This document shows, one piece after another, positions 1,123 through 62,952 of a stretch of DNA of 64,000 nucleotides. Source of the stretch: Liolophura sinensis (taxonomy: Eukaryota > Mollusca > Polyplacophora > Chitonida > Chitonidae); the NCBI RefSeq assembly GCF_032854445.1, contig NC_088300.1, positions 54,846,984 through 54,910,983 of the forward strand. Direction: 5' to 3'. The notes under the pieces are model-generated. The model saw only the letters and a program-made list of their open reading frames with translations, did no database searches and was not told the origin of the DNA. The first letter of the stretch is position 1, and every line of letters starts with the position of its first letter. A program made the translations under genes and the position numbers.

Positions 1123-1908
1123 CCAATAAATAGATAAATTCTGTCATTGATACTCATTTATTTGATGTGTGTACAAGTATTTTGTACAATTGTTTGAATT
1201 GTTTTTTGTTCATGAGTTTTCTGTTTGGTTCAAATTTGTTTATCTTCAAGAATTTCTTTCAGGTGTTCTCAAGGAACTTGGGAAATCAGTGTATGATACT
1301 GTTTGACAGTTAAATGTTTTATTGTTATTTATGAATGGTGAAGTGAATTTATTCTTCAATAAAGATAATGGTGAAATGACAACTGTTTGCTCTCTTTTAT
1401 TTCCACAAATGTGAAACAAGTGGTTAAAAAAGATTCGTCCGTTAAATCTGGGACTATATTATCCCAGAAAACAGAAAAGAACATAACCCTTTTAAATCAG
1501 CAGTTTTTAACTTTAGGTCTTGATACATTTTCATTGTTTAATAATTCAAAAGTGAAGACAACTTTTGTGAAAACTTCAACTTCAGCAACATATGCGAAAT
1601 CGGTTTTCTTGTTTTTCTTGCGCAAACGTAGCTCGTCTTTGATCAAGGATGTCTTGCGTTAACAGTATTAAACTACAAAATAATGTCGTAAGTTTGAAAC
1701 AGTTCGAATAATTACAGGTTAAAGAGTTCTCGTTTTTCTGATGTACAGTCATGTGAATCGGCAACATCAAAGACGCTGCGCGTCAAGTTTCACCACATAG
1801 ACTGTGATGTAATACAAATAAGGCCCGGAGTGAGACGAGGCTTACCAAAGGTAGGGTGACCTGATCCATATCACTATATAATACCTCACGGCTATAAACA
1901 AGTAGGGT
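1123..1908. other. Non-coding, nothing recognised
   Basis: A 91-codon open frame lies at 1387-1662 (+). It resembles no family I know and has low-complexity Ser/Lys/Thr content, so I treat it as chance. Nothing else is recognisable. Confidence 0.5.
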
Positions 1909-1909
1909 A

Positions 1910-2250
1910 CCTGTAGCACGAGGTGAGGTCGGGCACCTGTAGCCCGAGCTGTGGTCGGGCACCTGTAGCCCGAGATGTGGTCAGGTACCTATAACCCGAG
2001 GTGTGGTCGGATACCTGTAGCCCGAGATGTGATAGGGTACCCGCTGCCCTAGATGTCTTAGGGTACCTGTAGCCTGTACGCTTGTGCCCCATGGTGTGGT
2101 CGGGTAATTTCTGGTCATGTATCTGAATTCTAGATCTGGCCGACCACCTGTAGATCAAGATATGGTCGGGGATCTGTAGAGTGGCGCACGGTGGGATATC
2201 TGTATCTGTATCGGTCGGGAACCTGTAGCACGAGGCCTGTAGCCTGCATG
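1910..2250. repeat. 26-bp tandem repeat, degenerate
   Basis: Successive units begin with cctgtagcccgag at 1910, 1936, 1962, 1988, 2014, 2040 and 2066, a strict 26-bp period. More degenerate pieces continue to about 2250. Open frames crossing it on the minus strand follow from the repeat and are not treated as genes. Confidence 0.8.
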
Positions 2251-2261
2251 GGGACGTGCAG

Positions 2262-2365
2262 GCAGCATTATGATGGGAGGAAACCGAGTAAAAATCAGGG
2301 AAAACCCACAGCCAACCGGAAGAGCACTGACAGACCTTCCCACGCACCACCGCAGAGGAGTGGAT
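2262..2365 (-). repeat. SINE-A central fragment
   Basis: Minus-strand central domain of SINE-A ('cagcattatgatgggaggaa', then 'cagaccttcccacg'). The head-proximal part may be the fragment at 2548-2662, separated by about 180 bp of other sequence. Confidence 0.65.
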
Positions 2366-2547
2366 GGATCCAACACCTCTTCTCGTGACAACGGTACTTC
2401 ATTCCATTCCCGGTGAAAGCAAATGTGACGCCATGACGTCACAGAAAGATTGAACATTTGTAACCAATGTGTGGGACATCCGCTTAACCTGTTTGCAACA
2501 ATATTGCTTACAATTGCTCAGTTGCGTGTTCTTGATTTACGGTTCGG

Positions 2548-2662
2548 AAAGGTTAAGCCAGCATGAGCTGACCTTGAACTCACAGCGACCGCATTGGTGA
2601 GAGGCTCCTGAGTCATTGCGCCACTATGGCACGCTGTCCACCTCGGCCACAGATGCCCCCTG
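2548..2662 (-). repeat. SINE-A head fragment
   Basis: Minus-strand tRNA-like head region: 'aagccagcatgagctg', 'cagcgaccgcattggtgaga' and 'cctcggccacagatgcccc'. It is probably the 5' half of the SINE whose other half is at 2262-2365. Confidence 0.7.
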
Positions 2663-2911
2663 CAGCGTTAAGAAGCTGAACATGCTGAAATATAGCGTTA
2701 AACAGCTGTGCATGCTGAACAACAGGTTTGGAGTAAAACACCTACATTTATCTAGATGAAAGGTTACTCGAGCAAACGTTCATGGAGCAAAGTTCGTGAT
2801 ATGATTAGGTTCAAGTGATTTAATCTTGTGAGGGATACAAATACCACCGTATACACTTATATACACTTATACGCTTATATATCAGCATGGCCCGCAGCTG
2901 AGGTAAACCCA

Positions 2912-21342
<18,431 letters not shown>

Positions 21343-35870: not shown

Positions 35871-36236
35871 TAGGGTAGGGCGGGGCAAGAAGCCCAGGCG
35901 AGGCAAAAAGCCCACCCCACATTTGGAAGTAATGACGTCATCCTCCAGCCCGCGAACTGCTCAGGTCAAGTGAGGTCGTCAAGGCTGAAAGTCTCATGGA
36001 GCGGCAGGTTTGAAGGCGGCGTAGTTTTCCTTCGTCACGGTGAGTGTGAAAATTGACACATTTTTTGTAAAAACATAGCATGATATATTACGAGATACAG
36101 ACTGAAGGAAAAGTCCAATTAACAAGACACTTGGTGTGCAATAAACCCTTGTAATTATGCTTCGTACGCAGCTGCTCCACAGCAAGAAATATCTGACTGG
36201 CCTTGCGCAATTGAAAAAAATGTTGAACCACGTGGC

Positions 36237-36318
36237 TGGGGCAAAACGCCCATGCGTGTCTGGGGCTAAAACGCCCACTGTGTGCGTTTTACCCCAGTGC
36301 ATGTGCGTTTTGCCCCAT
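36237..36318. promoter_or_regulatory. 5' subterminal palindromic motif array, copy 1
   Basis: Four variants of GGGGCAAAACGCCCA occur within 82 bp, two in each orientation, giving an imperfect inverted repeat (tggggcaaaacgc at the left, gcgttttgcccca at the right). Such subterminal repeats often serve as transposase binding sites; that is inference. The same array is at 39556-39637 and 42875-42956. Confidence 0.6.
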
Positions 36319-36665
36319 CAACAGTATTCCCAGTTTAATAAGTTTTTAACGTTAGCGCAAATAATATGTGTAGTAAATACCAGTAGTTTGTAATGTATAA
36401 CCACTACCTAGGGATATACATCTATGTACATATTTACAAATTTCTAAGGTTGGATGACATTTGTGATAAAACGGGGCAGCTAGTTTGCGAGGATTGGTAA
36501 AAAAGCCTAAACTGTTTTGAATTTGATGAAATGGTATCAAAGGCATCTTTTCCGTCTAATAAAATCTATCTATGGTATACGTGTATATATATAACATATA
36601 TTTTGGGATGTGTGATACGGCTTATAATGGGAAAATATTTTCTCACGCTTATTTCAGATTTCACT

Positions 36666-38705
36666 ATGGTGAGGAAATACAAACGTAAATCCACTAGGGG
36701 ACAATACGGGAACCAACAACTTACTTTGGCTTTGGAAGCAGTGAAAGGGGGTATGCCACTCCTGCGAGCGTCGAAGGAATTTGATATTCCCCGTAGGACC
36801 ATAAGACGCCACAGGGATCGACTGGTGGCCAATCCGGGTGTTTCACGTCTTGGTAGACATCGTGTTATCCTCACAGAAAATCTCGAGAAAGAACTAAATG
36901 ACCACATTCAGTATATGGAAAAGTCTCTCTACGGACTGACCACACAAGACGTTAGAAGACTCGCCTACGAGATGGCTGAGGCAATTGGATTGCAACACCC
37001 ATTCAGTCATGATCGCAAAATGGCTGGAAAGGACTGGCTTTCAGGATTTCTCACTCGCCATCAAAATTTGAGCATTAGAGAACCTCAAGGAACTAATCTC
37101 TCCAGGGCGGTTGGGTTCAACAAACCTAAAGTTCAACAGTTTTTCGGTGTGTACAAGGAGTTGCTTCAATCTGAGGAATTTACACCTGCCCGTGTTTGGA
37201 ATATGGATGAGACTGGGATAACAAGCGTACATAAGCCAGGGAAAATTCTTGCCACCAAGGGCGTGAAACAGGTGAGCCGGATGACAAGTGGAGAGCGTGG
37301 CAAGACGGTGACTGTGATTTGTGGAATGAATGCTGCAGGCATGTATGTACCCCCTATGCTTATTTTCCCCCGAAAGAGGATGGTCGATGCGTTGATGGCC
37401 GGCGCACCTCCGCAAGCAGTCGGTTATGCAAGCCCAAATGGGTGGACTGACGCAGAACTTTTTCTCAGGTGGTTGGAGCATTTTGTGAACTTTACAAATG
37501 CTTCAAAAGATGTTAAGCAAATAATTATTCTTGATGGTCACCACAGTCACAAAACACTGGCGGCAGTTACCTACGCACGGGAGCATGGCTTGCATCTTCT
37601 AACTCTGCCACCCCACAGTACACACAAGATGCAGCCGTTAGACAGGACGTACTTCAAATCCCTCAAGAGTGGGTATAATGCAGCATGTGACTCGTGGATG
37701 GTTGCCAACCCTGGGAAGCGAATTTCATTCTTCGAAATGGCTGCTATATTTGGCAAGGCTTACCTGAAGTCGGCAACACCTGAAAAGGCTGTTGGGGGGT
37801 TCGCATGTTGCGGAATATGGCCTTTTGATGAGAACATATTTCCAGATAGTGAGTTCGCCGCAGCTGCAGTGACAGATGAACCTGAACCCCAGAGAGAGAC
37901 AGCTAATGGACAGGATACACCCATTACAGAATTGACAGGGACTGTCCGTTCTACCGAAAAACAGCCGAGCGCGGCCATCGGCGAGGAAGAAACTTCTGGT
38001 TCTTCGAGTGAAGAAGCTACACAGTTACCACCACCATCTGTACCAGGCCCCAGCACTCAAGATGTACCTGGTAATTAACCTCTATGACAGCGTATTTTGT
38101 ACTAAGTGTGTAGGCCTGCTAAATGACTGTGTTTTGCAACATACAGGGAGTCTTCTATTCTAACCTATACTTAATTTGTCTGGTTCATATATTGTTGAAA
38201 GTTATATTGTTGTCTTGAGAGTGAATGGGCGCCTTTGTTTATTTCAGGCTCAACAGCACTGCAGAACTTAATTCGAAGCTTGTCACCGACTCCAAAGCTA
38301 GCAACCTCGCGAGCAAGGAAGAGGAAAGCTGAAGGTGCGGCACTGTTAACCTCATCTCCGTACAAGGCAATGCTGGAAGAGAAACAATCTTCAAAAGATG
38401 GCAAGGGTAAGAGGGGTAGGAGAGCTGCCGTCAATAGCTCAGGAAAGAAGAATGGCAAGGGAAATGTGAAGGGAAAAGGGACTGTGGAAAAGACAAAGGA
38501 CGCCTGTGAAGACAGCAGCGACGAGGACGAAGTATGGCCTTGTTTGATTTGTGGGGAGCCTTTCTCCAATTCCAAATCAAGGGAAATTTGGGTGAGGTGT
38601 GTAACATGTCTGCAATGGGCACATGAAGAATGTACAAACGGGGAAAAGGTGTTTTTATGTCCGAACTGTGAATCTGACCAGGATTCAGAAGATTCAAGTG
38701 ATTAA
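36666..38705 (+). CDS. Pogo-like transposase with C-terminal PHD-like finger, copy 1
   Basis: Exons 36666-38070 and 38248-38705 (CTG|GTAATT to TTTCAG|GC, phase 1) give 620 aa. The start is the ATG just after a good acceptor (36657). The open frame extends upstream to 36531, but the first 45 residues there are hydrophobic and unlike a transposase. Domains: psq-type helix-turn-helix (about 5-55), CENP-B-type DNA-binding region (about 70-165, with AGKDWLSGFLTRH), and DDE endonuclease core (about 175-345) with Asp181 (WNMDETG), Asp290 (IILDGHHSH) and Asp326 (MQPLD). This is a DDD triad with 35 residues between the last two, within the pogo range. An acidic/Ser linker, a Lys/Arg-rich stretch and a C4HC3 PHD-like finger (CLIC, CVTC, WAHEEC, CPNC) follow in exon 2. 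No disabling change is visible, so it may be active. Confidence 0.9.
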
Positions 38706-38969
38706 ACGAGATTCAGCCAATTTAACCAGAATGTTTTCAGTCGATTCAACAAGTTTTTGGGGTTTTTTTTGGATGAACTGAATGTACTTTTTGTTTTGTC
38801 ATTACAAGACCGCCATTAGATACAATTTCCTGTAATGCCTGAGGATTTCTGAATAAAGCAAAAATACTGGTATTGTATCCGACAAGAGTGGTATGCTTAT
38901 GATGAATGATTATTCCAGTCTGGGGTGTTGAAGGGTAAAACGCCCACCGTGGGCATTTTGCCCCAGCTT

Positions 38970-39008
38970 GTGGGCGTTTTGCCTCAACACCTGAGGCAAA
39001 ACGCCCAC
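38970..39008. promoter_or_regulatory. 3' subterminal perfect hairpin, copy 1
   Basis: The 17-bp arms gtgggcgttttgcctca and tgaggcaaaacgcccac are exact inverted repeats around a 5-base loop. They are built from the same GGCAAAACGCCC motif as the 5' array. Further copies of the hairpin are at 42289-42327 and 45608-45646. Confidence 0.75.
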
Positions 39009-39191
39009 TTTGTGTTGATAATGTTCAGGTCTCTATACCGCCTAAAGAAAGGCTATTACCTATATGCCATTGGGCACATACAGGATACGCTATAGGCTAT
39101 CTCTCTGTGGAATGGTTTTTCATTTAGCAGAGATGTTGTGGATACAGAGCCATTTGCGCTTAGGGTGTGCGTCTTGCCCCACCCTACCCGG

Positions 39192-42100
39192 GGGTAGGGC
39201 GGGGCAAGAAGCCCAGGCGAGGCAAAAAGCCCACCCCACATTTGGAAGTAATGACGTCATCCTCCAGCCCGCGAACTGCTCAGGTCAAGTGAGGTCGTCA
39301 AGGCTGAAAGTCTCATGGAGCGGCAGGTTTGAAGGCGGCGTAGTTTTCCTTCGTCACGGTGAGTGTGAAAATTGACACATTTTTTGTAAAAACATAGCAT
39401 GATATATTACGAGATACAGACTGAAGGAAAAGTCCAATTAACAAGACACTTGGTGTGCAATAAACCCTTGTAATTATGCTTCGTACGCAGCTGCTCCACA
39501 GCAAGAAATATCTGACTGGCCTTGCGCAATTGAAAAAAATGTTGAACCACGTGGCTGGGGCAAAACGCCCATGCGTGTCTGGGGCTAAAACGCCCACTGT
39601 GTGCGTTTTACCCCAGTGCATGTGCGTTTTGCCCCATCAACAGTATTCCCAGTTTAATAAGTTTTTAACGTTAGCGCAAATAATATGTGTAGTAAATACC
39701 AGTAGTTTGTAATGTATAACCACTACCTAGGGATATACATCTATGTACATATTTACAAATTTCTAAGGTTGGATGACATTTGTGATAAAACGGGGCAGCT
39801 AGTTTGCGAGGATTGGTAAAAAAGCCTAAACTGTTTTGAATTTGATGAAATGGTATCAAAGGCATCTTTTCCGTCTAATAAAATCTATCTATGGTATACG
39901 TGTATATATATAACATATATTTTGGGATGTGTGATACGGCTTATAATGGGAAAATATTTTCTCACGCTTATTTCAGATTTCACTATGGTGAGGAAATACA
40001 AACGTAAATCCACTAGGGGACAATACGGGAACCAACAACTTACTTTGGCTTTGGAAGCAGTGAAAGGGGGTATGCCACTCCTGCGAGCGTCGAAGGAATT
40101 TGATATTCCCCGTAGGACCATAAGACGCCACAGGGATCGACTGGTGGCCAATCCGGGTGTTTCACGTCTTGGTAGACATCGTGTTATCCTCACAGAAAAT
40201 CTCGAGAAAGAACTAAATGACCACATTCAGTATATGGAAAAGTCTCTCTACGGACTGACCACACAAGACGTTAGAAGACTCGCCTACGAGATGGCTGAGG
40301 CAATTGGATTGCAACACCCATTCAGTCATGATCGCAAAATGGCTGGAAAGGACTGGCTTTCAGGATTTCTCACTCGCCATCAAAATTTGAGCATTAGAGA
40401 ACCTCAAGGAACTAATCTCTCCAGGGCGGTTGGGTTCAACAAACCTAAAGTTCAACAGTTTTTCGGTGTGTACAAGGAGTTGCTTCAATCTGAGGAATTT
40501 ACACCTGCCCGTGTTTGGAATATGGATGAGACTGGGATAACAAGCGTACATAAGCCAGGGAAAATTCTTGCCACCAAGGGCGTGAAACAGGTGAGCCGGA
40601 TGACAAGTGGAGAGCGTGGCAAGACGGTGACTGTGATTTGTGGAATGAATGCTGCAGGCATGTATGTACCCCCTATGCTTATTTTCCCCCGAAAGAGGAT
40701 GGTCGATGCGTTGATGGCCGGCGCACCTCCGCAAGCAGTCGGTTATGCAAGCCCAAATGGGTGGACTGACGCAGAACTTTTTCTCAGGTGGTTGGAGCAT
40801 TTTGTGAACTTTACAAATGCTTCAAAAGATGTTAAGCAAATAATTATTCTTGATGGTCACCACAGTCACAAAACACTGGCGGCAGTTACCTACGCACGGG
40901 AGCATGGCTTGCATCTTCTAACTCTGCCACCCCACAGTACACACAAGATGCAGCCGTTAGACAGGACGTACTTCAAATCCCTCAAGAGTGGGTATAATGC
41001 AGCATGTGACTCGTGGATGGTTGCCAACCCTGGGAAGCGAATTTCATTCTTCGAAATGGCTGCTATATTTGGCAAGGCTTACCTGAAGTCGGCAACACCT
41101 GAAAAGGCTGTTGGGGGGTTCGCATGTTGCGGAATATGGCCTTTTGATGAGAACATATTTCCAGATAGTGAGTTCGCCGCAGCTGCAGTGACAGATGAAC
41201 CTGAACCCCAGAGAGAGACAGCTAATGGACAGGATACACCCATTACAGAATTGACAGGGACTGTCCGTTCTACCGAAAAACAGCCGAGCGCGGCCATCGG
41301 CGAGGAAGAAACTTCTGGTTCTTCGAGTGAAGAAGCTACACAGTTACCACCACCATCTGTACCAGGCCCCAGCACTCAAGATGTACCTGGTAATTAACCT
41401 CTATGACAGCGTATTTTGTACTAAGTGTGTAGGCCTGCTAAATGACTGTGTTTTGCAACATACAGGGAGTCTTCTATTCTAACCTATACTTAATTTGTCT
41501 GGTTCATATATTGTTGAAAGTTATATTGTTGTCTTGAGAGTGAATGGGCGCCTTTGTTTATTTCAGGCTCAACAGCACTGCAGAACTTAATTCGAAGCTT
41601 GTCACCGACTCCAAAGCTAGCAACCTCGCGAGCAAGGAAGAGGAAAGCTGAAGGTGCGGCACTGTTAACCTCATCTCCGTACAAGGCAATGCTGGAAGAG
41701 AAACAATCTTCAAAAGATGGCAAGGGTAAGAGGGGTAGGAGAGCTGCCGTCAATAGCTCAGGAAAGAAGAATGGCAAGGGAAATGTGAAGGGAAAAGGGA
41801 CTGTGGAAAAGACAAAGGACGCCTGTGAAGACAGCAGCGACGAGGACGAAGTATGGCCTTGTTTGATTTGTGGGGAGCCTTTCTCCAATTCCAAATCAAG
41901 GGAAATTTGGGTGAGGTGTGTAACATGTCTGCAATGGGCACATGAAGAATGTACAAACGGGGAAAAGGTGTTTTTATGTCCGAACTGTGAATCTGACCAG
42001 GATTCAGAAGATTCAAGTGATTAAACGAGATTCAGCCAATTTAACCAGAATGTTTTCAGTCGATTCAACAAGTTTTTGGGGTTTTTTTTGGATGAACTGA

Positions 42101-42508
42101 ATGTACTTTTTGTTTTGTCATTACAAGACCGCCATTAGATACAATTTCCTGTAATGCCTGAGGATTTCTGAATAAAGCAAAAATACTGGTATTGTATCCG
42201 ACAAGAGTGGTATGCTTATGATGAATGATTATTCCAGTCTGGGGTGTTGAAGGGTAAAACGCCCACCGTGGGCATTTTGCCCCAGCTTGTGGGCGTTTTG
42301 CCTCAACACCTGAGGCAAAACGCCCACTTTGTGTTGATAATGTTCAGGTCTCTATACCGCCTAAAGAAAGGCTATTACCTATATGCCATTGGGCACATAC
42401 AGGATACGCTATAGGCTATCTCTCTGTGGAATGGTTTTTCATTTAGCAGAGATGTTGTGGATACAGAGCCATTTGCGCTTAGGGTGTGCGTCTTGCCCCA
42501 CCCTACCC
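39192..42508 (+). mobile_element. Pogo/Tigger-like DNA transposon, copy 2
   Basis: Same sequence and layout as copy 1. It has no TA on either side: its flanks are GG spacers joining copies 1 and 3. It therefore cannot be an independent TA-targeted insertion. Confidence 0.93.
39985..42024 (+). CDS. Pogo-like transposase with PHD-like finger, copy 2
   Basis: Exons 39985-41389 and 41567-42024. The 620-aa product is identical to copy 1, with the DDD triad and zinc-finger residues intact. Confidence 0.9.
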
Positions 42509-42510
42509 GG

Positions 42511-45500
42511 GGGTAGGGCGGGGCAAGAAGCCCAGGCGAGGCAAAAAGCCCACCCCACATTTGGAAGTAATGACGTCATCCTCCAGCCCGCGAACTGCTC
42601 AGGTCAAGTGAGGTCGTCAAGGCTGAAAGTCTCATGGAGCGGCAGGTTTGAAGGCGGCGTAGTTTTCCTTCGTCACGGTGAGTGTGAAAATTGACACATT
42701 TTTTGTAAAAACATAGCATGATATATTACGAGATACAGACTGAAGGAAAAGTCCAATTAACAAGACACTTGGTGTGCAATAAACCCTTGTAATTATGCTT
42801 CGTACGCAGCTGCTCCACAGCAAGAAATATCTGACTGGCCTTGCGCAATTGAAAAAAATGTTGAACCACGTGGCTGGGGCAAAACGCCCATGCGTGTCTG
42901 GGGCTAAAACGCCCACTGTGTGCGTTTTACCCCAGTGCATGTGCGTTTTGCCCCATCAACAGTATTCCCAGTTTAATAAGTTTTTAACGTTAGCGCAAAT
43001 AATATGTGTAGTAAATACCAGTAGTTTGTAATGTATAACCACTACCTAGGGATATACATCTATGTACATATTTACAAATTTCTAAGGTTGGATGACATTT
43101 GTGATAAAACGGGGCAGCTAGTTTGCGAGGATTGGTAAAAAAGCCTAAACTGTTTTGAATTTGATGAAATGGTATCAAAGGCATCTTTTCCGTCTAATAA
43201 AATCTATCTATGGTATACGTGTATATATATAACATATATTTTGGGATGTGTGATACGGCTTATAATGGGAAAATATTTTCTCACGCTTATTTCAGATTTC
43301 ACTATGGTGAGGAAATACAAACGTAAATCCACTAGGGGACAATACGGGAACCAACAACTTACTTTGGCTTTGGAAGCAGTGAAAGGGGGTATGCCACTCC
43401 TGCGAGCGTCGAAGGAATTTGATATTCCCCGTAGGACCATAAGACGCCACAGGGATCGACTGGTGGCCAATCCGGGTGTTTCACGTCTTGGTAGACATCG
43501 TGTTATCCTCACAGAAAATCTCGAGAAAGAACTAAATGACCACATTCAGTATATGGAAAAGTCTCTCTACGGACTGACCACACAAGACGTTAGAAGACTC
43601 GCCTACGAGATGGCTGAGGCAATTGGATTGCAACACCCATTCAGTCATGATCGCAAAATGGCTGGAAAGGACTGGCTTTCAGGATTTCTCACTCGCCATC
43701 AAAATTTGAGCATTAGAGAACCTCAAGGAACTAATCTCTCCAGGGCGGTTGGGTTCAACAAACCTAAAGTTCAACAGTTTTTCGGTGTGTACAAGGAGTT
43801 GCTTCAATCTGAGGAATTTACACCTGCCCGTGTTTGGAATATGGATGAGACTGGGATAACAAGCGTACATAAGCCAGGGAAAATTCTTGCCACCAAGGGC
43901 GTGAAACAGGTGAGCCGGATGACAAGTGGAGAGCGTGGCAAGACGGTGACTGTGATTTGTGGAATGAATGCTGCAGGCATGTATGTACCCCCTATGCTTA
44001 TTTTCCCCCGAAAGAGGATGGTCGATGCGTTGATGGCCGGCGCACCTCCGCAAGCAGTCGGTTATGCAAGCCCAAATGGGTGGACTGACGCAGAACTTTT
44101 TCTCAGGTGGTTGGAGCATTTTGTGAACTTTACAAATGCTTCAAAAGATGTTAAGCAAATAATTATTCTTGATGGTCACCACAGTCACAAAACACTGGCG
44201 GCAGTTACCTACGCACGGGAGCATGGCTTGCATCTTCTAACTCTGCCACCCCACAGTACACACAAGATGCAGCCGTTAGACAGGACGTACTTCAAATCCC
44301 TCAAGAGTGGGTATAATGCAGCATGTGACTCGTGGATGGTTGCCAACCCTGGGAAGCGAATTTCATTCTTCGAAATGGCTGCTATATTTGGCAAGGCTTA
44401 CCTGAAGTCGGCAACACCTGAAAAGGCTGTTGGGGGGTTCGCATGTTGCGGAATATGGCCTTTTGATGAGAACATATTTCCAGATAGTGAGTTCGCCGCA
44501 GCTGCAGTGACAGATGAACCTGAACCCCAGAGAGAGACAGCTAATGGACAGGATACACCCATTACAGAATTGACAGGGACTGTCCGTTCTACCGAAAAAC
44601 AGCCGAGCGCGGCCATCGGCGAGGAAGAAACTTCTGGTTCTTCGAGTGAAGAAGCTACACAGTTACCACCACCATCTGTACCAGGCCCCAGCACTCAAGA
44701 TGTACCTGGTAATTAACCTCTATGACAGCGTATTTTGTACTAAGTGTGTAGGCCTGCTAAATGACTGTGTTTTGCAACATACAGGGAGTCTTCTATTCTA
44801 ACCTATACTTAATTTGTCTGGTTCATATATTGTTGAAAGTTATATTGTTGTCTTGAGAGTGAATGGGCGCCTTTGTTTATTTCAGGCTCAACAGCACTGC
44901 AGAACTTAATTCGAAGCTTGTCACCGACTCCAAAGCTAGCAACCTCGCGAGCAAGGAAGAGGAAAGCTGAAGGTGCGGCACTGTTAACCTCATCTCCGTA
45001 CAAGGCAATGCTGGAAGAGAAACAATCTTCAAAAGATGGCAAGGGTAAGAGGGGTAGGAGAGCTGCCGTCAATAGCTCAGGAAAGAAGAATGGCAAGGGA
45101 AATGTGAAGGGAAAAGGGACTGTGGAAAAGACAAAGGACGCCTGTGAAGACAGCAGCGACGAGGACGAAGTATGGCCTTGTTTGATTTGTGGGGAGCCTT
45201 TCTCCAATTCCAAATCAAGGGAAATTTGGGTGAGGTGTGTAACATGTCTGCAATGGGCACATGAAGAATGTACAAACGGGGAAAAGGTGTTTTTATGTCC
45301 GAACTGTGAATCTGACCAGGATTCAGAAGATTCAAGTGATTAAACGAGATTCAGCCAATTTAACCAGAATGTTTTCAGTCGATTCAACAAGTTTTTGGGG
45401 TTTTTTTTGGATGAACTGAATGTACTTTTTGTTTTGTCATTACAAGACCGCCATTAGATACAATTTCCTGTAATGCCTGAGGATTTCTGAATAAAGCAAA

Positions 45501-45827
45501 AATACTGGTATTGTATCCGACAAGAGTGGTATGCTTATGATGAATGATTATTCCAGTCTGGGGTGTTGAAGGGTAAAACGCCCACCGTGGGCATTTTGCC
45601 CCAGCTTGTGGGCGTTTTGCCTCAACACCTGAGGCAAAACGCCCACTTTGTGTTGATAATGTTCAGGTCTCTATACCGCCTAAAGAAAGGCTATTACCTA
45701 TATGCCATTGGGCACATACAGGATACGCTATAGGCTATCTCTCTGTGGAATGGTTTTTCATTTAGCAGAGATGTTGTGGATACAGAGCCATTTGCGCTTA
45801 GGGTGTGCGTCTTGCCCCACCCTACCC
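42511..45827 (+). mobile_element. Pogo/Tigger-like DNA transposon, copy 3
   Basis: Same sequence as copies 1 and 2. Its right end is followed by TA (45828-45829), matching the TA left of copy 1 and closing the array. Confidence 0.93.
43304..45343 (+). CDS. Pogo-like transposase with PHD-like finger, copy 3
   Basis: Exons 43304-44708 and 44886-45343. The 620-aa product is identical to copies 1 and 2. Confidence 0.9.
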
Positions 45828-45829
45828 TA

Positions 45830-48479: not shown

Positions 48480-49250
48480 CCACCTCCACACTTCACATCA
48501 TCCTCACCGTCACCTCCACAACATCCTCACCGTCACCTCCCACTCCACATCATCGATCCTCACCGTCACTTTCACTCCACGTCATCCTCACCGCCACCTC
48601 CAAACACAACATCATACTCACCGTCACTTCCAAACTGCACATCATCCTCACCGTCACCTCCAAACTCGACATCATACTCACCGTCACCTCCAAACTGCAC
48701 ATCATCCTCACCGTCACCTCCACTCCACTTCATCCCCACCGTCACCTCCAAACTGCACATCATCCTCACCGTCACCTCCACTCCACATCATCCCCACCGT
48801 CATCTCCAAACTGTACATAATCCCCACCGTCACCTCCCACTCCACATCATCCTCACCGTCACCTCCACTCCATATCATACTCACTGTCACCCCCCACTCC
48901 ACACCGTCACCTCCAAACTCCACATCATCCTCACGGTCACCTCCCACTCCACTTCATCCTCACCGTCACCTCCACTCTACATCATCCCCACCGTCACCTC
49001 CCACTCCACATCATCCTCACCGTCACCTCCACTTTACATCATCCTCACCGTCACCTCCCACTCCACATCATACTCACCGTCACCTCCCACTCCACATCAT
49101 CGATCCTCACCGTCACCTCCACTCCACATCATCCTCAGCGTCACCTCCAAACTGCACATCATCCTCAGCGTCACCTCCACTCCACATCATCCTCACCGTC
49201 ACTTCCACTCCATATCATCCTCACCGTCACCTCCACTCCACAACATTGTC
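48480..49250. repeat. 28-30-bp minisatellite
   Basis: About 26 units of cctccactccacatcatcct plus caccgtca, with 28-, 29- and 30-bp variants (cctccaaactgc, cctcccactcc). A 363-codon frame runs across it (48361-49452, +). The product is low-complexity His/Ser/Pro-rich sequence whose register shifts with unit length, so I treat it as non-coding. Confidence 0.92.
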
Positions 49251-53714: not shown

Positions 53715-55905
53715 CTCTAGAGCCGTCATGCCCTGTATCTCCACAACCCTCATTATCATGAAACCTTCTCTGTCAATGCTAGAGCCGTCACGTCCCGGAT
53801 CTCCACAGCCCTCATTATCATGGAACCTTCTCTGTCTATGGTAGAGCCGTTAAGTACAGCATCTCCTCATGAAACTTTCTCTGCTCATGCTAGAGCTCTC
53901 ATGCCGCGCATCTTCACAACCCTCATTATCACGAAGCATCTTCTGTCCACGGTGGAGTCGTCAAGCGCAGCATCTCCTCATGAAACTTTCTCTGCCCATG
54001 GTAGAGCCGTTATGTGCCGCATCTCCACAGCACTCATCATCATGAAACCTTCTCTGTCCATGCTACAGCCGTCATGTCCCGCATCTCCACATCACTCATC
54101 ATCATGAAACCTTCTCTGTCCATGCTAGAGCCGTCTGTCCCGCATCTCCATATCTCTCATCATCATGAAACCTTCTCTGTCCATGCTATAGCCGTTATGT
54201 CCCGCATCTCCACAGTCCTCATCATCATGAAACCTTCTCTGCCCAAGCTATAGCCGTTATGTCCCGCATCTCCACATCACTCATCATCATGAAACCTTCT
54301 CTGTCCATGCTATAGCCGTTATGTCCCGCATCTCCACAGTCCTCATCATCATGAAACCTTCTCTGCCCAAGCTATAGCCGTTATGTCCCGCATCTCCACA
54401 TCACTCATCATCATGAAACCTTCTCTGCCCAAGCTAGAGCCGTCTGTCCCGCATCTCCACAGTCCTCATCATCATGAAACCTTCTCTGTCCATGCTATAG
54501 CCGTCTGTCCCGCATCTCCATATCTCTCATCATCATGAAACCTTCTCTGTCCATGCTATAGCCGTCTGTCCCGCATCTCCACATCACTCATCATCATGAA
54601 ACCTTCTTTGTCCATGCTATAGCCGTCTGTCCCGCATCTCCACAGTCCTCATCATCATGAAACCTTCTCTGTCCATGCTATAGCCGTTATGTCCCGCATC
54701 TCCATATCTCTCATCATCATGAAACCTTCTCTGTCCATGCTATAGCCGTCTGTCCCGCATCTCCATATCTCTCATCATCATGAAACCTTCTCTGTCCATG
54801 CTATACAGGCAGCGAAATTTGGCGCGAACGAAACCGTCGGTCGCGCAACGGTTACGTGCGGTTCAATTTGGCTAACCGGAAAATCGGTTAGGCCAACTGT
54901 CCAACGAGAACGTCCTTAGAGTCAGTGTGCATTAGGTAACTACAGATAAACTGGACTGAACAGCTTTCATAATCACAACGCGGCCAGTATGCGGTCAGCC
55001 ACAGCCAGCTGCCTGTGCTGGTCACATGGAAATGTAATCATTCATATATGCTTTACAGGCTTTGAGATAATACTCAAATTATTTATTTTGACTTATCTTT
55101 TCACATATAAGCCTGTATAACGGAATTTCACGTAAAAATGTGCCACAGGAGTCAAGTACCAACCAGGCAACACACAACGTTGAAACACCGTGTGAGTGTA
55201 AAATTTCTCTTTCTTTTGTTCACCAACCTTACGGTATGAGCTGCTAGATATAGAAAAGAAAAACAAACATAACATTGAGCTGAATACTTTTATTAATGAT
55301 CCAGAATGATGCCTGAAACATAAACCACGTAAACAATTAGCGTAACCGATCGGGTTGATAAACATACGTGGCGTAACCGAATGATCGGTTACGCGAGGCG
55401 GAAAAGACGTAACCGATTTCTGGGTTTCGCCGGCAGGCCAAATTTCGCTGCCTGCTATAGCCGTCTGTCCCGCATCTCCACAGTCCTCATCATCATGAAA
55501 CCTTCTCTGCCCAAGCTAGAGCCGTCATGTCCCGCATCCTCATAGCACTCATCATCATGAAACCTTCTCTGCCCAAGCTATAGCCGTCTGTCCCGTATCT
55601 CCATAGCTCTCATCATCATGAAACCTTATCTGCCCAAGCTATAACCGTTATGTCCCGCATCTCCATAGCTCTCATCATCATGAAACCTTCTCTGTCCATG
55701 CTATAGCCGTTATGTCCCGCATCTCCACATCACTCATCATCATGAAACCTTCTCTGTCCATGCTATAGCCGTTATGTCCCGCATCTCCATAGCTCTCATC
55801 ATCATGAAACCTTCTCTGTCCATGCTATAGCCGTTATGTCCCGCATCTCCACATCACTCATCATCATGAAACCTTCTCTGTCCATGCTATAGCCGTCTGT
55901 ACTAA
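53715..55905. repeat. 62-bp satellite-like tandem array, interrupted
   Basis: Units of 61-62 bp contain gccgttatgtcccgcatctc, a cacatcactc or cacagtcctc variant block, atcatcatgaaaccttctct and gtccatgctata or gcccaagctata. About 18 units lie left of the inserted element (54806-55454) and about seven to the right. The leftmost units are most diverged and the inner ones nearly identical. Short open frames at 53572-54253 follow from the repeat. Confidence 0.93.
54806..55454. mobile_element. 649-bp non-autonomous DNA transposon (MITE-like) inside the satellite
   Basis: The termini CAGGCAGCGAAATTTGGC and its exact reverse complement form perfect 18-bp inverted repeats. ctata flanks both sides (54801-54805 and 55455-55459). 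Neighbouring satellite units show the empty site as a single ctata, so a 5-bp target duplication is directly visible. Inside, a CGGTTACG/CGTAACCG motif recurs near both ends. The 90-codon frame at 55093-55365 (-) matches no transposase. The superfamily is undetermined: the CAGG start recalls hAT-like ends, but hAT duplicates 8 bp. Confidence 0.88.
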
Positions 55906-62489: not shown

Positions 62490-62726
62490 CTAAAAACGGA
62501 AGATTTTTCCTAGAAATGTTTTGCACACAGACCCCAATGCGGACATATGTGCAGTGCTACCTAAAAGCTATGTCGCAGACACCAGACATGACACGGGGAC
62601 GAGCAGTACTTGATATATCCCATTATGCCGAACCACGCGTTCATACATGAGGTCACATGACGGGAAAAAATTACATGAACATATACATGCAAAAACTTTT
62701 TAAAAGTTCCATGTATAATGAATGTC
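62490..62726. other. Non-coding, nothing recognised
   Basis: Short stretch between the candidate exon and a SINE-A. Confidence 0.4.
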
Positions 62727-62952
62727 AATCTCTCATACTTGCGGACGCTGTGAGTTCAAGTCCAGCTCATGCTGGCTTCATCTCCGGCCGTAAGCGGGAA
62801 GGTCTGTCAGCAACCTGCGGATAGTCGTGGGTTTCCCCCGGGCTCTGTACGGTTTCTTCCCACCATATAATGCTGGCCGCCGTCGTATAAGTGAAATATT
62901 CTTGAGTACGGCGTAAAACACCAATCAAATAAATAAATAAATCTCTCATACT
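62727..62952 (+). repeat. SINE-A, 5'-truncated, with 13-bp target duplication
   Basis: The body at 62740-62939 begins at the B-box-like 'gtgagttcaagtccagc' region and runs to a clean AAAT tail. The direct repeat aatctctcatact flanks it (62727-62739 and 62940-62952). It is close to the apparent family consensus, so probably recent. Confidence 0.92.

Follow-up and report, generated by a model that had tools for sequence, protein, structure and literature searches.

Known end-to-end arrangements of transposons

Heterochromatic clusters of complete elements are known for Bari1, a Tc1-like transposon of Drosophila melanogaster, of which about 80 copies lie at h39 and six in a second cluster. Its joints are without the first two bases of the left end, and either a circle or an aberrant transposase has been proposed as the source of the clusters (PMC8834629, PMC4877112). 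A 2022 review of the Bari1 arrays states that, to its authors' knowledge, no comparable example had been described (PMC8834629). Joined ends are also known from extrachromosomal forms: 15 intact joints have been reported from hobo circles, three of them perfect and 12 with 1-20 nt extra (PMC2803484). In Ac/Ds and P, the transposase uses ends that lie on two elements or on sister chromatids (PMC3744419). In D. virilis, the satellite Tetris is built from a transposon (PMC4079207).

How does the chiton locus reported here compare? As in Bari1, complete elements of the IS630-Tc1-mariner type lie head to tail with their ends joined directly. Bari1, however, is a Tc1-like element, whereas the chiton array consists of pogo elements, is found in a mollusc, has three units and keeps its outer TAs. 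The joints also differ, as both ends are complete and two G are gained in the chiton, compared with two bases lost in Bari1; because this two-base loss is not found, the chiton array is regarded as similar in structure but is not filed as a member of the Bari1 type. The circles of hobo and Hermes offer a likeness, as their ends are joined to each other too, in many cases with the repeats intact and a small number of additional bases, but these are hAT circles and the chiton structure is a chromosomal pogo tandem. In the Ac events, as far as the portions of the literature compared describe them, the ends enter a target, with host DNA either duplicated or deleted in the process, whereas the chiton ends appear joined together. 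Circles of Tc1 were reportedly described by Radice and Emmons in 1993, a study cited in PMC2803484. Bacterial IS30/IS3-type circle or dimer joints, in the descriptions compared, resemble the chiton joint in having abutted ends and a short spacer. The spacer of the IS30 joint is 2 bp, and in the copy-out/paste-in pathway of IS3/IS30 the spacer derives from the DNA flanking the insertion. In the chiton the flanks are TA and the spacer is GG, unlike a flank-derived spacer, and both transposase and pathway are different.

Structure of the array

The window, i.e. the whole stretch of DNA analysed, is 64 kb in length (C6:54846984-54910983) and contains 0 N. Its sequence reveals three 3,317-bp units head to tail at 35873-45827 (9,955 bp), with a period of 3,319 bp and no mismatch. 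A preliminary description of this DNA had reported three identical copies with this length and period, and in all three pairwise comparisons there are indeed 0 differences (9,951 bp of unit sequence). The joints, at 39182 and 42501, read CCCTACCC-GG-GGGTAGGG, and both terminal repeats are complete. TA is present only at the outer borders of the array and is absent between units (Table 1); the same description had placed GG between the units and TA at the outer borders only, as the window sequence confirms, and its span of 35871-45829 is correct and counts both outer TAs. Insofar as the assembly can be relied on, the tandem structure is real.

Table 1. Features of the pogo array, in positions of the 64-kb window
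Feature	Position	Strand	Remarks
Left TA, target-site duplication	35871..35872	.	TA-GGGTAGGG border as in 5/5 single full copies found
Unit 1, pogo-type transposon, 3,317 bp	35873..39189	+	Unit comparison
Left terminal inverted repeat	35873..35909	+	37 nt, 76% match to right end
Transposase coding exon A, unit 1	36666..38070	+	HTH_psq, HTH_Tnp_Tc5 below cut-off, DDE_1; recurs at +3319 and +6638
Predicted coding exon B, unit 1	38248..38702	+	PHD-finger-like, below cut-off; recurs at +3319 and +6638
Right terminal inverted repeat of unit 1	39153..39189	+	Terminal repeat comparison
GG spacer, joint 1	39190..39191	.	Read from window sequence
Unit 2, identical to unit 1	39192..42508	+	Unit comparison
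GG spacer, joint 2	42509..42510	.	Read from window sequence
Unit 3, identical to unit 1	42511..45827	+	Unit comparison
Right TA, target-site duplication	45828..45829	.	Window sequence and borders of single copies

The remainder of the window contains several other features. Read by eye, open frames at 11584-12675 and 14381-16087 resemble an adhesion-type GPCR in its extracellular and its seven-helix part; this receptor-like reading frame lies about 20 kb from the array. A 21-bp tandem array of about 78 units (19368-20992) is open in several frames on both strands. Minisatellites are present at 48489-49246 and 53717-55897, with periods of about 28/58 bp and 62/124 bp, and are strongly strand-asymmetric: across most of them, the GC skew per 2-kb window is about -0.3 to -0.4. 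Dispersed copies of a repeat that carries the tail GAGTACGGCGTAAAACACCAATCAAATAAATA, perhaps a SINE, lie in both orientations at 1-1028, 5662-5907, 6612-6770, 9130-9401, 62701-62947 and other positions.

A pogo-superfamily element

The two coding exons, whose splice sites were predicted from GT..AG, join into an open frame with a predicted protein of 620 aa. In a Pfam profile search, the long frame matches DDE_1 (PF03184; E 9.9e-19, 68 bits, cut-off 22) and HTH_psq (26.9 bits, cut-off 20.4). HTH_Tnp_Tc5 scores 20.9 bits, which is under its cut-off of 22.2, a PHD finger in the last exon scores 16.6 bits, under a cut-off of 24, and BrkDBD was not reported for the long frame in this search. The catalytic triad is D181, D290 and D326, with 35 residues separating the last two (DD35D). 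Transposons of the pogo superfamily have a DDD spacing of DD29-56D (59 in some pogoR), TIRs of up to 40 bp in most families and a length of 1.2-5.2 kb (PMC7386202). The chiton element has all the corresponding features, i.e. DDE_1, DD35D, an N-terminal HTH, a TA duplication, 37-nt TIRs and a length of 3,317 bp. Judged by its sequence, it is a DD35D transposon of the pogo superfamily, and the domain, triad, TIR and TA results bear out the pogo-like assignment made earlier.

Within the superfamily, DD35D is described for Passer and for Fot/Fot-like elements; Passer has BrkDBD plus HTH_Tnp_Tc5, or HTH_Tnp_Tc5 alone, and Fot/Fot-like elements have HTH_psq and/or HTH_Tnp_Tc5. Most Fot elements duplicate TAA and some TA, and TA rather than TAA target sites are found in pogo families other than Fot/Fot-like (PMC7386202). 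With Passer and other pogo elements the chiton transposon shares DDE_1, the TA target, short repeats and DD35D, but it differs from Passer in that HTH_psq is over and HTH_Tnp_Tc5 under the cut-off. With Fot/Fot-like elements it shares DD35D and HTH_psq, but it is flanked by TA, unlike most Fot. Tandem arrays are absent from the portions of the Passer and pogo literature compared. Among solved structures, a sequence comparison yields no match at E 0.001; in viral contigs, three stretches fit a peptide pattern, and none of the three encodes a transposase relative. A 17-nt motif like CTGGGGCAAAACGCCCA recurs in both orientations (36231-36320, 38930-39008, left end of each unit), and these subterminal repeats are possible candidates for transposase binding sites.

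Other copies in the genome

A DNA search of the genome, in which the best candidates were scored, found at least five further full-length copies at 99% and at least two damaged copies; these counts are lower bounds, and the window's own copies were not among the matches listed. The five full-length copies are all single and have TA on both sides (5/5), which confirms the borders of the element independently. The 620-residue frame is intact in three of them (L001-L003) and frameshifted in the other two (L004, L005). With up to 3 mismatches allowed, the left end was found at 27 places in the genome (control 0), six of which are the trimer itself. Outside the trimer, left ends of the family follow TA in 5/6 cases and TG in 1/6, and right ends precede TA in 6/6, whereas 0/4 of the inner ends of the trimer adjoin TA. 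TA is thus the rule at the ends of this family and the four inner ends of the trimer are the exception. Another seven of the 27 places are ends of related subfamilies, six with TA and one with GG; the remaining two are a degenerate end (L020), left unscored, and an unrelated repeat (L037).

Two loci have ends or interiors that depart from the usual form. A subfamily 2 pogo element (L044, C8:46146000-46155500; see also L033) has GG in place of TA before its left end at C8:46150140. Its right end adjoins TA if the end is taken as ...GACCC, as in two sister copies, and its left flank is a satellite-like array. The GG perhaps reflects a rearranged flank or a shared end chemistry. The other locus (L054, C3:18191000-18200000; also L007/L008) belongs to the same family as the array and contains internal templated filler. 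Element positions are in the order 1-1312, 1602-1650, 1261-1297 and 1261-3298, with a short stretch repeated at the joins. This filler looks as though a break had been repaired by error-prone gap filling, with switches of template.

Is the GG joint present elsewhere? When the joint and the adjoining TIR bases were searched for with a spacer of 0-12, only the two joints of the trimer matched in 609 Mb, with 0 matches for the reversed control, and the joint is thus not a chance sequence. A looser, shorter pattern with a spacer of 0-15 yielded three sites in the genome, the two joints and C5:17431206. The reversed control of this pattern also matches (2 forward and 2 reverse), which puts C5:17431206 at chance level; it is a short palindrome without surrounding transposon sequence and was rejected as a third joint. 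With both patterns, no circle-like or GG-joined copy with a spacer of 0-15 was found elsewhere in the assembly, and the genome-wide search for further joints proposed in the preliminary description returned none beyond the two in the window.

Age of the tandem

Substitutions were counted in an alignment of one trimer unit, the five full copies, the damaged copy L006 and two parts of L054, with the two short filler pieces of L054 omitted and indels left uncounted. The window copy has 8 private substitutions, all of them present in each of the three units, and the count of unit-specific ones is 0. In the five single full copies the counts are 9, 8, 14, 8 and 9 (mean 9.6); among the damaged copies, L006 has 15 and the two L054 parts have 18. 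Each substitution is restricted to one alignment row, the exception being columns 2887 and 2891, which lie in a homopolymer run of uncertain alignment and at which the window copy and L001 or L006 have a state in common.

A trimer of the same age as the insertions should by now have gathered about 29 unit-specific changes, against 0 observed. The 95% bound on the age of the tandem is about 10% of the insertion's age, assuming no gene conversion between units, which would erase unit-specific changes and relax the bound. The 'private' substitutions may also predate the last transposition of the window copy. As far as substitution counts can tell, the insertion probably predates the tandem by a wide margin, and the youth of the tandem leads to a preference for amplification in place over entry as a trimer. 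Perfect identity of the units is expected of a young tandem. The simplest reading of the alignment is that one insertion aged as a single copy and was then recently multiplied from itself.

Proposed origin

How might a single insertion become three? The reading preferred here, with a probability of roughly 0.6, is that an ageing single insertion had its own ends cut by transposase and joined with GG, and that unequal exchange then produced the trimer. The borders show a single insertion at one TA. A pogo-type element would have entered this TA and aged in place. With transposase active, cuts would later be made at the element's right end and at the left end of a copy of itself, this partner copy being either on the sister chromatid (hybrid-end cutting) or an excised circle that recombines with the resident copy. 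Host end joining would fuse the two transposon ends, leaving the repeats intact, with two G added or slipped in during the joining. The product would be a dimer with outer TA only and no host DNA inside, and unequal homologous exchange between its identical 3.3-kb units could raise the number of units to three or more, every joint being the same. The sequence itself shows the structure, the borders, the joint, the identity of the units and the private substitutions; we infer that transposase made the cuts, that end joining and exchange followed, and whether a sister chromatid or a circle supplied the partner.

Several observations point in this direction. The joint breaks exactly at both ends as mapped by the single copies, so that the cuts look transposase-defined. 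Private substitutions are common to all units, and the same locus is therefore most likely the source. The second joint is identical to the first, and exchange, rather than a second joining, most likely made three units from two. Open frames are present in the trimer and in L001-L003, so transposase could come from several loci. The preliminary description had argued that separate insertions would each carry TA and that unequal crossing-over would copy flanking DNA between units. Both arguments hold, and ordinary unequal crossing-over cannot make the first joint. It had left two routes, and the one favoured by the 8 common and 0 unit-specific substitutions is amplification in place from a GG-joined dimer; entry as one unit would require that the element had transposed recently, and the other copies found carry no trace of this.

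The GG itself is less readily explained. ISY100 is described as cutting two nucleotides inside the 5' end, and the excision footprints of Passer, a pogo element, are 0-4 bp (PMC9976928). Repair of overhangs after an ISY100-like cut would lead to small gains or losses at the joint. By simple reasoning, filling of such ends before joining would leave no spacer and loss of an overhang would remove two bases, a result close to the Bari1 joint. Extra bases between intact ends are common in hobo circles, and an addition or slippage during end joining is therefore proposed for GG. The simplest joining models do not predict GG, and this counts against the preferred reading, as does the lack of a circle-like or GG-joined copy elsewhere in the assembly. 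That pogo-type transposases have a side pathway in which their own ends, lying on sister chromatids, are fused into 'signal joints' is offered here as a speculative and rather doubtful proposal.

Alternative explanations

Could the array have arrived ready-made? The insert at TA might have been a single 9,955-bp concatemer, whether or not formed by replication of a circle, that used its outermost ends; TA at the outer borders only is the trace expected of such an event, and for the Bari1 clusters, replication of a circular transposon in a rolling-circle-like manner has been put forward (PMC8834629). The substitutions make this entry unlikely, as the 8 private substitutions of the window copy are much like the 8-14 of the five single full copies, and no aligned pair has common derived substitutions, apart from one length-ambiguous stretch, which means that there is no sign of other recent transposition among the copies found. 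Had the concatemer entered alongside the other copies, its units should differ. A local hop that leaves two elements in the same orientation, followed by removal of the DNA between them and joining of the facing ends, yields an identical joint, and Ac/Ds and P reactions use the ends of two neighbouring elements (PMC3744419). It is a very improbable source of the array, as transposase must act twice and the DNA in between must be lost, and no sign of it was noticed in a general look at the flanks. Insertion into the TA beside a resident copy would use a legitimate target, but both bases of the spacer must then mutate from TA to GG while 9,951 bp of units stay identical, and this is hardly credible. 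Insertion at the GG of the left or the CC of the right terminal repeat was rejected because the G/C count disagrees: a spacerless joint and an extra G or C at the outer border would result, and neither is seen. Random tandem duplication or template switching as the first step was also rejected, as both breakpoints are exactly on element ends.

Could the array owe its form to the assembly? The Liolophura japonica assembly (GCA_032854445.1) was made with hifiasm, purge_dups and Omni-C scaffolding from 14x of HiFi reads that average 8,347 bp (PMC11068029). An average read does not reach across the 10-kb array, which leaves 'exactly three' units insecure, and the concern over an assembly artefact raised in the preliminary description stands for the unit number. 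It applies far less to the GG joint, which would have to be present in reads and would be hard to make by misassembly. A real joint with a wrong number of units, or a joint from circles or one haplotype threaded into the locus, is in keeping with these reads and programs and with a 9,955-bp array of units that cannot be told apart, but is nevertheless quite unlikely. Mean-length reads span one 3.3-kb insertion, which makes a false trimer from a single copy improbable, and some should span a 6.6-kb dimer; the assembled trimer would then speak for at least three units in one haplotype. No second near-identical 1-kb flank is present among the best 40 of 1,703 and the best 40 of 5,726 candidates; each flank matches itself at 100%, and the other matches listed are short, at 72-86%, as of dispersed repeats. 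A HiFi homopolymer error as the source of GG was considered and set aside as unlikely, since it would need a gain of two in a three-base run at both joints.

Significance

The chiton array is unusual, but it is one locus. It looks like a second case of complete transposons joined by their ends, after Bari1, in another superfamily and another phylum and at three units. A pogo tandem was not found in the titles and abstract openings of the open-licence literature on the subject, which is weak evidence. That satellites can be built from transposons is already known from Tetris, and the general link is therefore not new. The array is most likely a by-product of transposase cutting and host repair, and it suggests that a cutting enzyme together with cellular break repair can turn a single transposon into a tandem array. 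The chiton locus makes the origin of such arrays testable, as there is a site, a joint and a single-copy allele to look for in other individuals. If the signal joints prove true, a cut-and-paste insertion would be able to expand by itself, and in animals an intact DNA transposon could then give rise to a satellite directly.
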